Shown piece by piece: positions 5,005-11,415 of a stretch of 24,505 nt of DNA; position 1 is the first letter of the stretch; each line of letters starts with the position of its first letter. The DNA is taken from positions 1 through 24,505 of IMG/VR virus record IMGVR_UViG_3300045999_006707. The stretch is one strand, 5' to 3'. Source of the stretch: a virus. The position numbers and the translations under genes are program-made. The notes below the pieces were generated by a model, which ran no database searches, had not been told where the DNA came from, and saw only the letters and a list, made by a program, of their open reading frames with translations.

Positions 5005-5895
5005 ATGCCCGACACGAAGATCACAGCACTTACGGCACTGACTGCGGCTGATCCCGCGAATGATGTGCTTCCGATTGTCGATGTGAGTGACACGACAATG
5101 GCGGCTTCTGGTACCACCAAGAAGATCAGCATCAACAATGTTCTTGGTTGTTCCGGCACCGCCACGCTCGCCTCCGCCACCATCACCGGCAACCTGACGG
5201 TGGATACGAATACGCTGTTCGTGGATGCGGCGAACAATCGGGTGGGTATTGGGACGGTGAGTCCGGTTGACTCGCTTCATATTTTTGGAACCGGAAATGC
5301 CTTGATTGAAGGAAGTGCTGGCATTTATGCCAAAACAATCACGAAGGTCGGCGCGAAATCTTGGCAGTTTGGTTATCGCAGCGGAACGCTTCAGTACGAA
5401 ATCCAAGAGGATGGTGTTGAGCGTTACACCATCGGAAACGGTGGCACTCCGCATACATGGTACATCGGTGCGTCCACCGCCATGACCCTCAACTCCACCG
5501 GCTTGGGCGTGGGGGTGAGTCCGGCGGCAAAGTTCGACAGCTTGGTTGCCGATGCTGCTGAATGCGCTCGTTTCCGTGCGGCAAGTGGCTGGCTGCGGAT
5601 TCATCCTTATCTGGACGCAACGGATGTTTGCCGACTGCAATCGGTCAACAATACCAACACGGGGCTTCAAAACCTGACGGTTGAGGGATTCAATCTTCGG
5701 TTCAATACAAACAATGGAAACGCTGTCATTATCGATAGCCTCGGAAACACGGTTTCCAACGTGAACTCTGCGGTTCCTGCGCTTGGAACCAATAACCGGA
5801 TGGTCTTCAACCTGACATCCAACACCAACCTCCGCATCTCGGTTCGCGGCTCCGATGGTGTAACCCGCACTACCAACCTCACCCTCGCCCCCTAA
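5005..5895 (+). CDS. Tail fibre-like protein
   Basis: This 296-residue protein looks like a fibrous tail or adhesion protein. The N terminus (about 4-48) has the familiar KITALTALTAADPANDVLPI and VDVSDTTMAASGTTKKIS pattern, used by many phage fibre proteins as an attachment module. A repeat-like region follows (TITGNLTVDTNTLFVDAANN and RVGIGTVSP), then a globular middle with Tyr/Trp-rich segments (KSWQFGYRSGTLQYEIQED). The C terminus has FNLTSNTNLRISVRGSDG and TTNLTLAP. No chaperone-type peptidase triad is evident. A related attachment module appears inside the second fibre gene at 10126-11415. Fibres bind the host cell surface. Confidence 0.75.
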   Translation: MPDTKITALTALTAADPANDVLPIVDVSDTTMAASGTTKKISINNVLGCSGTATLASATITGNLTVDTNTLFVDAANNRVGIGTVSPVDSLHIFGTGNALIEGSAGIYAKTITKVGAKSWQFGYRSGTLQYEIQEDGVERYTIGNGGTPHTWYIGASTAMTLNSTGLGVGVSPAAKFDSLVADAAECARFRAASGWLRIHPYLDATDVCRLQSVNNTNTGLQNLTVEGFNLRFNTNNGNAVIIDSLGNTVSNVNSAVPALGTNNRMVFNLTSNTNLRISVRGSDGVTRTTNLTLAP

Positions 5896-6420: not shown

Positions 6421-6627
6421 ATGCCCCCCATCGACAACCACGAACTGGAAGTCCGAATCGTGCGCCTCGAAACCACCATCGGCGACAAGGATTCCGGCCT
6501 CGTCTCCGACATCCACGGCATCAAAGCCTGTGTCGAGGGGCTGAAACAGTTTCAGTGGAAGCTGTTCGGAGGCCTCGCGGTCATCGTCGTTCTCGCCCAA
6601 ATGTTCGTCCGAATCGTCCTAAAATGA
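6421..6627 (+). CDS. XhlA-like membrane protein of the lysis cassette
   Basis: The 68-residue protein has a soluble N-terminal heptad-like segment (HELEVRIVRLETTIGDKD, about 7-24) and a helix (SDIHGIKACVEGLKQFQWK). One C-terminal transmembrane helix follows (about 47-66, LFGGLAVIVVLAQMFVRIVL). This layout of coiled coil then single C-terminal anchor matches small XhlA-type lysis accessory proteins. It lies directly upstream of, and overlaps by 4 bases, a two-helix holin candidate. Its job would be to assist holin hole formation in the inner membrane. The identification is by topology and neighbour, not by a signature motif. Confidence 0.6.
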   Translation: MPPIDNHELEVRIVRLETTIGDKDSGLVSDIHGIKACVEGLKQFQWKLFGGLAVIVVLAQMFVRIVLK

Positions 6628-6794
6628 ATCCCAACATCGCCTCCCTCATCCGCCACGCCCTCACCGCCGCCGGCGGATTCTTCGTCGCCAAGGGCCTCGC
6701 CTCCTCGGAGCAGATCGTCGAAATCGTCGGCGCACTCAGCACCGTCATCGGCATCGTTTGGTCCGTCAAAAACAACACGCTCAAGAAGGACTGA
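6624..6794 (+). CDS. Putative holin (two transmembrane helices)
   Basis: The 56-residue product starts at the ATG in an ATGA overlap. It has the pattern SLIRHALTAAGGFFVAKGLAS (about 7-27), then EQIVEIVGALSTVIGIVWSVKNN (about 30-51) and a basic tail NTLKKD. Two hydrophobic helices joined by a short turn, with the IRHxLTAxGG and GIxWSV signatures, match small phage holins of the Pam3-gp28-like group. Holins oligomerise in the inner membrane and time lysis. The next gene follows in a TGATG overlap, so the whole lysis cassette appears translationally coupled. Confidence 0.75.
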   Translation: MNPNIASLIRHALTAAGGFFVAKGLASSEQIVEIVGALSTVIGIVWSVKNNTLKKD

Positions 6795-6973
6795 TGAGCG
6801 CAGGCTGGATCTACCAGATCATCAAAGCCTTCCTCGACTTCTTCCGAGAAACCCCACCCACCGATGTCCAGCACGGCCAAGCTCCCAAGGCTCTCAAGGA
6901 TGATCTGGCTGCTCGCGTTGCCGATCTTCCCGGCCTGCCAGCAGACCAAGGTGGTCCTGGTGCCAAACGGTGA
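6794..6973 (+). CDS. Lysis-cassette small protein, possible inner partner of a spanin-like pair
   Basis: The 59-residue product starts at the ATG in a TGATG overlap with the holin stop. An N-terminal amphipathic or weakly hydrophobic helix (GWIYQIIKAFLDFFRE, about 4-19) is followed by a charged PKALKDDLAARVADLPG segment. Its last 110 bases are overlapped in another frame by a putative lipoprotein gene. Overlapping small genes after a holin, one ending in a charged helix and one a lipoprotein, recall Rz/Rz1 spanins, which fuse the inner and outer membranes. The helix is short for a typical i-spanin and lacks a long periplasmic coiled coil, so the role is uncertain. The overlap itself is plain in the sequence. 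Confidence 0.5.
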   Translation: MSAGWIYQIIKAFLDFFRETPPTDVQHGQAPKALKDDLAARVADLPGLPADQGGPGAKR

Positions 6974-7097
6974 CCCGGTGATGCTGGCCAAGCCCACAAA
7001 AGCCAAGGTGTACGCATTCGACAAAGATCAGAAACTCGTGGGGCCATCCACCGTGACACTCCCGGCTGGTTGGTACGCTCTCCCGAAAACCAAGTGA
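6864..7097 (+). CDS. Putative small lipoprotein overlapping the upstream lysis gene
   Basis: With ATG 6864 the product has 77 residues and a plausible lipoprotein signal: basic n-region (Lys6, Arg9, Arg12), hydrophobic IWLLALPIF, then Pro-Ala-Cys with Cys25 as candidate lipidation site. The lipobox is imperfect (Phe and Pro at -3 and -2). An alternative ATG at 6900 has AAGG at 6887-6890 but would remove the basic n-region. The mature part is beta-rich: VVLVPNGDPVMLAKP, KAKVYAFDKDQKLVG and TVTLPAGWYALP. I recall this VPxG...KAKV...LPxGWYxLP pattern from small proteins next to phage holins. An outer-membrane spanin-like or other lysis accessory role is inferred. It overlaps the gene at 6794-6973 by 110 bases in another frame. 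Confidence 0.6.
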   Translation: MSSTAKLPRLSRMIWLLALPIFPACQQTKVVLVPNGDPVMLAKPTKAKVYAFDKDQKLVGPSTVTLPAGWYALPKTK

Positions 7098-9431: not shown

Positions 9432-10124
9432 ATGGCCCTCAAGCAGAACACTTCGATCCTGTGCCAGCTACCGCTGCGGCAACGCGGCGGTGACCCAGGC
9501 ACCCTGCGCTCCATGTGGGGGCGCACGGACCTCAGGAATCAAAGCGTAGGCGAAGGCATCAATTCAGAACTGGCCGGCATCCCATACGGCCACCTCGCTC
9601 CATCATCATGGAACCTCCCATACCAAGGAGGAGCCATGTCGGCATACACCTACATCGGTGCCAGCTTCACGGTAGACCCACTCAATCTGGCGGGAGGTGT
9701 CGCGGCAAACGGGTCATCGACAATCACGTTCACCGTCGGGCCTTCGCTGCTCGAACTCATCTCGTCAGCAGCCGGTGATTGCACCGTCACATTCACGGTT
9801 GGCCCAGCCACCCTGCCCGGAGCGATCAACGGATCAGGAAATACCACGGTCACATTCACCGTCGGTCCAGACACCCTCGGGGCCATCATCGACCTGGCAG
9901 GCGGATCCACAGTCACATTCACCGATTCCGGGTCCACAACCGCCATCGGCGTCCTCGCCGGCGACATCAGCCCATTCACACCGCTTTCCCCTGAGAACCT
10001 CGCCGCAGCGGTAATAGCCGCTTCGCAAACCACACCCATCGTGGCCGACGCCAAGAATGTCGTTGGCAACTACAGGGACCAGTGGAGGATCAGATCCACC
10101 TACAAGAACCGTTTACGAACCTGA
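9432..10124 (+). CDS. Repeat-containing virion protein, five 21-residue units
   Basis: This is a 230-residue protein. Residues 1-68 form a distinct N-terminal part (LPLRQRGGDPGTLRSMWGRTD, then PYGHLAPSSWNLPYQGG). Residues 78-182 form five exact-length 21-residue units, each starting with a TFTVGP-like strand. The C terminus is basic (YRDQWRIRSTYKNRLRT). The start ATG follows the previous stop TGA by three bases. An internal in-frame ATG at 9636 has a very strong Shine-Dalgarno site (AAGGAGG at 9625-9631) and could give a shorter product covering only the repeats and tail. Beta-repeat proteins in this position are usually fibre or adhesion components. Confidence 0.7.
   Translation: MALKQNTSILCQLPLRQRGGDPGTLRSMWGRTDLRNQSVGEGINSELAGIPYGHLAPSSWNLPYQGGAMSAYTYIGASFTVDPLNLAGGVAANGSSTITFTVGPSLLELISSAAGDCTVTFTVGPATLPGAINGSGNTTVTFTVGPDTLGAIIDLAGGSTVTFTDSGSTTAIGVLAGDISPFTPLSPENLAAAVIAASQTTPIVADAKNVVGNYRDQWRIRSTYKNRLRT
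9663..9977 (+). repeat. Five tandem 63-base coding repeats (21 residues each)
   Basis: Units start at 9663, 9726, 9789, 9852 and 9915, an exact period of 63 bases. The best conserved block is GTCACATTCACCGTCGG-like and recurs at 9723, 9786, 9849 and 9912. In protein the units begin SFTVDP, TFTVGP, TFTVGP, TFTVGP and TFTDSG. The third and fourth are most similar. Perfect in-frame period and conservation of the first six residues show a beta-repeat module that can expand or contract by recombination. Confidence 0.9.
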
Positions 10125-10125
10125 T

Positions 10126-11415
10126 ATGGGAACACCGCTCACAGGAAGCACCGTAGCATCGACCTACACGTCGCTCCTCAAAACGACGGACAACGCCGCG
10201 CTGACCGCATCGCTCCGCACCATCAGCGATGGCAACGGCAACGATTCCGCGCTCCAGATCTCCTCCGCAGGAGTGGCCAGCACCGGCACCCTCGCAGTCA
10301 CCGGAGCCGCAAGCCTCTCGTCCCTCTCAACCAGCGGAAACATCACCGTCGGAGGCAACTTGGTTGTCACAGGGACCACCACTCTGTCAGCCGGTCTATC
10401 GGTGCCAGGAACTCTGTCCTGCACCGGCAACTTCTCGGTCAACACCAACAAGTTCACCGTCGATGCCACGAGCGGAAATGCTTCCATCCTCGGAACCCTT
10501 GGAGTCACCGGTGCCACCTCGCTCTCAAGCCTTTCAACAAGCGGTGCTGCCACGGTCGGAACCACCCTGGGAGTGACCGGCAACTTCTCCGTCAACAGCA
10601 CCCAGTTCACCGTCGCGGCAGCTACAGGCAACACGGCGGTCGCTGGAACCCTCAATGCGACCGGCAACTTCGAGGTCGGAGCCGCCAAGTTCACCGTCGC
10701 AGCAGCCAGCGGAAACACCGTCGTCGCAGGCACTCTCGATGTCGCCGGCAACACGGCCATCACCGGTGACCTTTCGGTCAATGGCAACACCACCATCGGA
10801 AACGCTTCCGGTGATTCTTTCACCGTCACCGCAGGAACAGTCGCCATCAACAACCTGCCGTCGAAAGCGACTCCGGTAAATGCCGACACCGTAATCATCA
10901 GGGATTCGGCCGCTTCAAATGCGGTCAAGACTGCAACCGTCTCCGCTGTTTCACCGGTCCGATTCGCGTACGCATACGACATCCAGACCGCAACAACCGC
11001 AGGCCAAACGCTTTCGCTGACCACAGGAGTCGGAACCGCAATACAAGAATCGGGGTCGGATTGGATTTACACTTGGACCCCAAAGAACATCGGGAACAAG
11101 GCGATCATCAGGGTTTCAATTCCGGTCAGAATGGGAATTACCGGATACGTTTACGCCGGAATCGTGGAAAACCCGTATTCGGCTCCAGCAAACGTCATCG
11201 CCGTCGGTGGCGTCTACAGCACGGCCGTTTCTCCTGTGAATGTCTTGGTTGAATCCGTGTTCACATCAAGCCAATCAACACACAGCTTCAAGATCTGGCT
11301 CACAGGTCAAACACAGACCGTCGTTGTGGCTGAGAATCCAAGCGGATACTACTTTGGACAGACAGGCACGACGTACCAAGCCAAGGTCCACTTTGAATTG
11401 ATCGAGTTCGCATGA
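10126..11415 (+). CDS. Second tail fibre-like protein with 28-residue repeats
   Basis: The start is placed at the ATG at 10126, one base after the previous stop. A longer frame from 10057 overlaps the upstream gene. The product has 429 residues. Residues about 50-222 are a Thr/Gly/Val/Ser-rich array. Three 28-residue units start at 100, 151 and 179, each with TGNFxV...FTVxA...GNxxVxGTL. An SLSSLSTSG motif appears twice (about 64 and 133). Residues about 243-275 are LPSKATPVNADTVIIRDSA followed by a KTATVSAV strand, resembling the attachment module of the fibre at 5005. The final 140 residues (WIYTWTPKNIGNKAIIRVSIP onward) form a distinct beta domain, probably the receptor-binding tip. Role: host attachment. 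Confidence 0.75.
   Translation: MGTPLTGSTVASTYTSLLKTTDNAALTASLRTISDGNGNDSALQISSAGVASTGTLAVTGAASLSSLSTSGNITVGGNLVVTGTTTLSAGLSVPGTLSCTGNFSVNTNKFTVDATSGNASILGTLGVTGATSLSSLSTSGAATVGTTLGVTGNFSVNSTQFTVAAATGNTAVAGTLNATGNFEVGAAKFTVAAASGNTVVAGTLDVAGNTAITGDLSVNGNTTIGNASGDSFTVTAGTVAINNLPSKATPVNADTVIIRDSAASNAVKTATVSAVSPVRFAYAYDIQTATTAGQTLSLTTGVGTAIQESGSDWIYTWTPKNIGNKAIIRVSIPVRMGITGYVYAGIVENPYSAPANVIAVGGVYSTAVSPVNVLVESVFTSSQSTHSFKIWLTGQTQTVVVAENPSGYYFGQTGTTYQAKVHFELIEFA

Follow-up and report, generated by a model that had tools for sequence, protein, structure and literature searches.

What do two short genes that share 110 bases in different frames do directly behind the holin of a virus, and could they supply the outer-membrane step of its lysis cassette? 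The question is raised by the 24,505-nucleotide stretch analyzed here (the window; IMG/VR record IMGVR_UViG_3300045999_006707, positions 1 to 24,505), in which a sequence-only reading had seen either a spanin variant or another type of lysis or envelope factor.

Results

Organization of the locus

On the + strand, a 68-aa protein (6421..6627) with a C-terminal hydrophobic segment precedes the holin, as in PF23987-type cassettes; it resembles coiled-coil holin partners and we take it to be XhlA-like. Its Pfam match to DUF7201 is weak (E 0.033), as is the match of its L082 homologue to a holin/anti-holin family in PHROGs (E 0.09). The holin itself (6624..6794, + strand), previously a candidate, belongs to Phage_holin_10 (PF23987; Pfam E 3.6e-15, above cut-off), and its TGA stop shares one base with the ATG start of the following gene, as TGATG. 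That gene, ORF A (6794..6973, + strand), encodes 59 amino acids with an N-terminal amphipathic helix (WIYQIIKAFLDFFR), a predicted second short helix and a Pro/Gly-rich tail. The gene that overlaps it (6864..7097, + strand) encodes a 77-aa candidate lipoprotein in which we found, as the sequence-only reading described, a basic n-region, a hydrophobic core and Pro-Ala-Cys at residues 23-25 (within FPAC), ahead of a beta-rich mature domain; the coordinates, lengths and 110-base out-of-frame overlap given in that reading also proved exact on recheck. The dual-coded overlap (6864..6973, + strand) covers the 3' part of ORF A and, on the lipoprotein side, the signal peptide, the lipobox and the first residues of the mature domain, the rest of which is encoded beyond ORF A. 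Within it, the TGC codon for the proposed lipidated Cys25 (6936..6938, + strand) takes its TG from bases 2-3 of an ORF A codon.

Conservation of the overlapping pair

Searching viral contigs with the 77-aa protein and keeping the best 80 of 397 relatives, we found both frames open in the same relative frame in 81/81 loci, the window included, with the ORF A stop ending at base 38 (70 loci) or base 35 (11 loci) in a count that starts at the Cys codon. Many of these loci are near copies: they hold 60 different lipoproteins and 52 different A proteins, and thinning at 90% reduces these to 25 and 24, respectively. The 38-base register is also kept in 5/5 distant loci (L082 and L163-L166), whose lipoproteins are 55-60% identical to that of the window, so that conservation of the overlap in relatives, the check proposed with the sequence-only reading, came out in its favor. 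Searches based on ORF A and on a wider lipoprotein profile each recovered both partners in one frame in 80/80 loci (best 80 of 453 and best 80 of 519 relatives, respectively); these sets have contigs in common with the first 80 relatives, and all of the conservation counts rest on best matches, which relatives lacking the overlap could have escaped. One 42-kb contig (IMGVR_UViG_3300043436_002614) carries two different holin-like/A/lipoprotein cassettes near its two ends (L101 1330-2385 and L105 2488-3292), and 321 shared 25-mers point to a duplication or to a join of two related phages.

Dual coding of the overlap

Synonymous recoding of ORF A with the codon usage of the window, applied to 23 sequences (the window, 19 of the 80 relatives and 3 of the five distant loci), preserved an open second frame in 56-95% of random trials. 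An open frame that also had a lipoprotein-like signal resulted from 0.07-0.5% of them, compared with 22/23 real sequences, under a lipoprotein-signal rule written so as to admit the lipoboxes of this pair; the sole failure among the real sequences, L039, is caused by an Asp near the Cys. For synonymous diversity, 86 loci gave 70 unique DNA sequences, of which 59 are of standard length (11 of other length were omitted). Across these 59 sequences ORF A diversity is 0.349 in codons 0-18, 0.331 in codons 19-43 and 0.020 in codons 44-54 (p 6.5e-5 for the first block against the last), and lipoprotein diversity is 0.197 within the overlap versus 0.405 outside it (p 1.7e-4), with p-values taken as guides because the sequences share ancestry. 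Over the entire overlap the drop in ORF A is borderline (p 0.05; n=59), which indicates that the constraint is concentrated at the start of the mature lipoprotein.

The Cys codon is maintained through codon choice in ORF A. The overlapping ORF A codon is CTG in 34, TTG in 24 and ATG in 1 of the 59 unique standard-length sequences, and the codon after it is CCA in 59/59; across 12 genes of the window, the commonest Leu codon is CTC (191/406) and CCA makes up 59/248 Pro codons. Since the lone change from a Leu codon to ATG still yields TGC, the Cys codon is kept despite an amino-acid change in ORF A. Together, the register in 81/81 and 5/5 loci, the recoding trials, the choice of codons over the Cys and the synonymous diversity rule out a chance pair of open reading frames.

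Properties of the two proteins

AlphaFold2, run with the family alignment, predicts four strands in residues 38-72 of the lipoprotein (pLDDT ~90 there; 69 overall, pTM 0.38), consistent with the beta-rich mature part described earlier. All 81 loci combine an n-region of net charge +1 to +4 with a hydrophobic core, and the mature domain is more conserved than the signal peptide. Around the Cys, [AG]-C-[QH] occurs in 86/86 loci, with Ala or Gly at -1 throughout and Gln (His once) at +2, in a tally whose search required Q or H after the Cys; C25 and Q26 are invariant in a 25-row alignment. The lipobox is unusual: 0/86 fit [LVI][ASTVI][GAS]C, none of the 86 starts with L, V or I, and Pro stands at -2 in 26/86, Cys at -3 in 49/86 and Asp at -4 in 15/86. 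PROSITE PS51257 is fitted by 11/86 loci. Judged by such simple sequence rules, the 77-aa product is a candidate lipoprotein with a non-canonical lipobox. The off-consensus box in 86/86 loci, with its Pro at -2 and Cys at -3, would also suit a secreted or membrane-anchored periplasmic protein that uses the Cys for another purpose, but this we consider very unlikely, given the Ala or Gly at -1, the Gln at +2 and the invariance of C25 and Q26, the hold that ORF A codon choice keeps on the Cys codon, and the existence among o-spanins of non-consensus lipoboxes, of which AWAC proved functional, as reported in the spanin survey of Kongari et al. (2018; PMC6139136).

For ORF A, AlphaFold2 (family alignment) gives, at low confidence, two short helices only (4-19 and 32-43; pLDDT 68, pTM 0.28), in agreement with the earlier remark that the first member has no long coiled coil. 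Hydropathy reveals no transmembrane segment in any of 81 sequences (the 19-residue Kyte-Doolittle mean peaks at 0.66, with a median of 0.15). The first helix is amphipathic (median moment 0.73 over the 81; median shuffle p 0.002, weaker in L017 and L019 at 0.014-0.028), the net charge runs from -4 to +2, and neither ORF A nor the mature lipoprotein has a cysteine beyond the lipidated one in 81/81 loci. Disruptins such as phiKT gp28 are reportedly small, cationic, amphipathic phage proteins that act on the outer membrane, and a disruptin-like action was an alternative for ORF A, itself small and amphipathic; we rejected it because a charge of -4 to +2 in 81 sequences is not cationic and because ORF A is paired with a lipoprotein.

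Gene neighborhood and lysis cassette

We surveyed the neighbors of the pair in 85 relatives (window excluded) with 17 proteins. The nearest upstream gene among those searched is a PF23987-type holin in 42/85 and a second holin-like protein in 43/85; the latter, of ~64 aa with two hydrophobic stretches, shows no detectable relation to the PF23987-type holin and no family match in PHROG and NCBIfam searches, and is called holin-like for its size, hydropathy and place. Counting the 81 loci by a simpler motif gave 36 of the PF23987 type and 43 of the second type and left 2 unassigned. The gene preceding the holin differs with the form of the cassette, being the 68-aa coiled-coil/TM protein in one form and a TM protein of a 56-aa type in the other (5/5 inspected second-form loci). 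The 68-aa protein is thus unlikely to be the true inner partner of the lipoprotein, as it is replaced by the 56-aa type and ORF A stays. The stop of the upstream ORF overlaps the ORF A start in 24/25 inspected loci (none is listed for L078), and the ORF A start codon is followed by A in 81/81 loci, giving NTGA.

Such a start inside the upstream stop, together with the amphipathic helix, would suit a partner of the holin at the cytoplasmic face, and ORF A lacks export features. ORF A might accordingly be a membrane-bound, antiholin-like holin partner or timing factor, and the lipoprotein might alone weaken or mark the outer membrane, the two sharing a transcript and acting by separate mechanisms; this division fits a mature lipoprotein domain encoded for the most part beyond the overlap and better conserved than the signal peptide. 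We nevertheless think it rather unlikely, for ORF A is retained though both the holin and its preceding gene are exchanged, which is unexpected for a specific holin regulator, and its co-occurrence with the lipoprotein is complete in both 80-locus sets (best 80 of 453; best 80 of 519). At one locus (L165 2758-2937) the holin is separated from A by a 59-aa ORF, which would fit joint movement of A and the lipoprotein independent of the holin.

Downstream of the lipoprotein the gene varies: among the 85 relatives it is phrog_7595-like in 32, gp80-like in 14 and like the window's 10057-11415 in 14, with 20 lacking a match and 5 ending with the contig. In the window it is a gp80-like fibre protein, an arrangement that, with the small size of the single lipoprotein, brings to mind a receptor-shielding or superinfection-exclusion lipoprotein of the T5 Llp kind, protecting progeny or the infected cell. 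We hold such a role to be highly improbable, since the constant neighbor is the holin and not the fibre, at least three kinds of gene follow the lipoprotein, and both ORF A and the fixed overlap register would be left unaccounted for.

A rule-based six-frame scan of the window and of a 39.8 kb record (G001) returned the 77-aa ORF as the lone lipoprotein-type ORF in each; the scan was not blind, as its rule was loosened after a stricter version missed the window's lipoprotein ORF. No endolysin adjoining the cassette was found when Phage_lysozyme, Peptidase_M15_3, Amidase_2 and SLT domains were sought. The first three matched 0/9 records, and SLT matched 6/9 at E 0.1, 3 of them above cut-off. 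In these six, a single-domain SLT protein of ~110-150 aa, a likely endolysin, is separated from the pair by roughly 16 kb or more, going by coordinates; the window, G001 and G002 yielded no such protein. Small stand-alone SLT-type proteins at L264 1498-1830 and on the - strand of L261 (112 aa) are candidate endolysins many kb from the holin cassette, and a 47.7 kb record (G008) has SLT matches at both ends (2-133 and 47354-47662), as if it were circular or cut inside the gene.

Comparison with spanins and other known systems

No described family in Pfam, PHROGs or NCBIfam matched ORF A or the lipoprotein above cut-off, the best PHROGs match of any lipoprotein tried having E 0.25. Against annotated phages, tblastn with the lipoprotein returned nothing, and ORF A and the L082 lipoprotein gave partial matches only (E 4 or more); one of the seven for the L082 lipoprotein (E 4, covering 35% of the query) falls under a gene annotated Rz. 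A profile search of solved structures yielded three matches (best E 0.16), VIA-align 0/457 at Z 2 or more, and Foldseek, at E < 0.001, nothing for the lipoprotein in its pdb set and nothing for ORF A in its viral set, where the lipoprotein matched A0A6J7WFE6 alone. Neither by sequence nor by fold did the libraries searched tie the pair significantly to any known spanin, and we rejected a classical spanin by homology. A0A6J7WFE6 (uncultured Caudovirales phage; BFVD/UniProt), a direct relative 84% identical to the lipoprotein over 61 columns, is named only "uncharacterized protein"; at 61 aa, it probably owes its shortness to a start called too far downstream, which would leave out part of the signal peptide.

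In layout, the pair closely follows overlapped two-component spanins of the P2 LysB/LysC kind, which are likewise two short genes in different frames adjoining a holin, with the lipoprotein signal encoded toward the 3' end of the first gene and the mature part beyond (PMC6139136). The survey counts 228/528 two-component pairs as overlapped, an arrangement found here in 81/81 and 5/5 loci, and describes association with lysis genes as usual, not universal; here a holin (42) or holin-like gene (43) lies upstream in 85/85. The combined length after the first ORF A helix, ~40+53 residues, exceeds the reported spanin minimum of 62 (PMC6139136). The sequence-only reading had counted the missing coiled coil and the beta-rich partner as departures from spanins, but neither is distinguishing, as the survey reports more than 120 i-spanins without a coiled coil and o-spanins with beta character, so that both traits are ordinary (PMC6139136).

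The marks that do distinguish the pair, as judged from the protein sequences, are an ORF A without a transmembrane anchor and two partners without extra cysteines. An i-spanin carries an N-terminal transmembrane domain, whereas ORF A, by hydropathy, has an amphipathic helix in its place. A periplasmic cysteine besides the lipidated one occurs in 507/528 spanin pairs and is absent from the 81 loci here, which is unusual and not excluding, because 21 reported systems also have none (PMC6139136). The pair also has an unusual lipobox and no sequence relation found to two-component spanins, and we have not filed it as one of them because ORF A has no transmembrane segment, there is no extra cysteine and the lipobox is off consensus. 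A unimolecular spanin was also rejected: the lipoprotein has no C-terminal transmembrane domain (by eye, no hydrophobic C-terminal segment; the sequence ends LPAGWYALPKTK), and its mature part is four predicted strands.

Genes 31-33 of Rhodobacter phage RcRudolph (OP009285) encode a holin-like protein, a small protein and an overlapping lipoprotein-type ORF, in an order like that of the window. The first resembles the window's holin (tblastn E 0.3; weak PHROG holin match, E 0.056). The second has 82 aa, a hydrophobic N-terminal stretch (maximum 19-residue hydropathy 1.01) and a long charged remainder that ORF A lacks, and the lipoprotein-type ORF overlaps its gene by 107 bases. Both members have weak PHROG matches to Rz-like spanins (E 0.025-0.11), with other families scoring better for both, and neither shows detectable homology to ORF A or the lipoprotein (hhalign probability 2.6 and 3.2%). 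RcRudolph also has a cell wall hydrolase annotated just upstream, in contrast to the window cassette, beside which no endolysin was found. The comparison suggests that a single plan has arisen convergently or been retained through great divergence. The annotated RCRUDOLPH_33 starts at 5463 and looks truncated, as the frame opens at 5313 (L167 5313-5606) with a signal ending IVTAC; this longer frame is the one that overlaps RCRUDOLPH_32 by 107 bases, a possible missed o-spanin.

Discussion

Immediately after a holin, the window encodes two proteins that are conserved together and share dual-coded DNA. The balance tips slightly toward their forming the outer-membrane step of the lysis cassette and working like an overlapped two-component spanin, a reading that draws on the linkage to interchangeable holins, the fixed overlap and the sole lipoprotein-type ORF found. 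The lysis link rests on gene linkage, and an outer-membrane role presumes a diderm host. Of the alternatives offered by the sequence-only reading, a lysis factor gained from the kept overlap, the holin linkage and the single lipoprotein, and a spanin proper lost ground through the missing transmembrane segment and extra cysteine.

As an outer-membrane lysis step, the pair could work as follows. The 77-aa product would be exported by Sec, cleaved before Cys25 and lipidated. In E. coli, Asp at +2 acts as a retention signal and Gln at +2 does not; because the lipoprotein has Gln there and no Asp retention signal, its predicted destination is the outer membrane, and the small beta domain would be exposed to the periplasm. 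ORF A would be translated by coupling to the holin and would lie on the inner membrane through its amphipathic N-terminal helix, or become periplasmic once the holin opens; with no transmembrane segment in 81 sequences, its reaching the periplasm is a proposal. We would guess that the lipoprotein's beta domain is contacted by the second helix and tail of ORF A, and that the bridge, after the murein is cut, pulls on both membranes or fuses them.

A bolder version, which we rate as doubtful though worth stating, is that the pair represents a new kind of disruptor beside the spanins, composed of a beta-domain lipoprotein and an amphipathic partner that has no transmembrane segment, stays cytosolic or at the cytoplasmic face until the holin opens and forms the bridge after triggering. 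In lambda, the spanin bridge is assembled long before holin triggering; if the bolder version is true, assembly here would follow triggering instead. Kongari et al. (2018) note that anchors other than transmembrane ones might serve spanins, and about 13% of the phages of Gram-negative hosts in their survey (91/677) have no recognizable spanin under criteria that seek a transmembrane i-spanin (PMC6139136). As an overlapped-spanin layout minus the transmembrane anchor, the pair is a small, concrete system for testing the need for that anchor, and it offers a searchable profile for phages with no recognizable spanin.

As to the host, a search with the G001 terminase gave three Akkermansia phages at 32-35% identity as the first rows among 223 matching records, a remote link that does no more than hint at a diderm host; the first rows of the capsid search were faecal and Bacillus phages. 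One match lies in a metagenome-assembled genome named Ca. Aquidulcis and tells little about the host, because the contig is phage-like from end to end (ORFs by eye) and the match is the sole one in 301 genomes drawn from that phylum. The Akkermansia phages Chambord, Chantilly and DTMo-2021a are absent from the annotated-phage tblastn matches, and a strict scan, which also missed the window's own gene, found no similar pair in them. Chantilly does encode, near its annotated endolysin (L258 15750-16034, - strand), a 94-aa protein with a hydrophobic stretch ending in QPGC, which might be a lipoprotein or a holin-like envelope factor.
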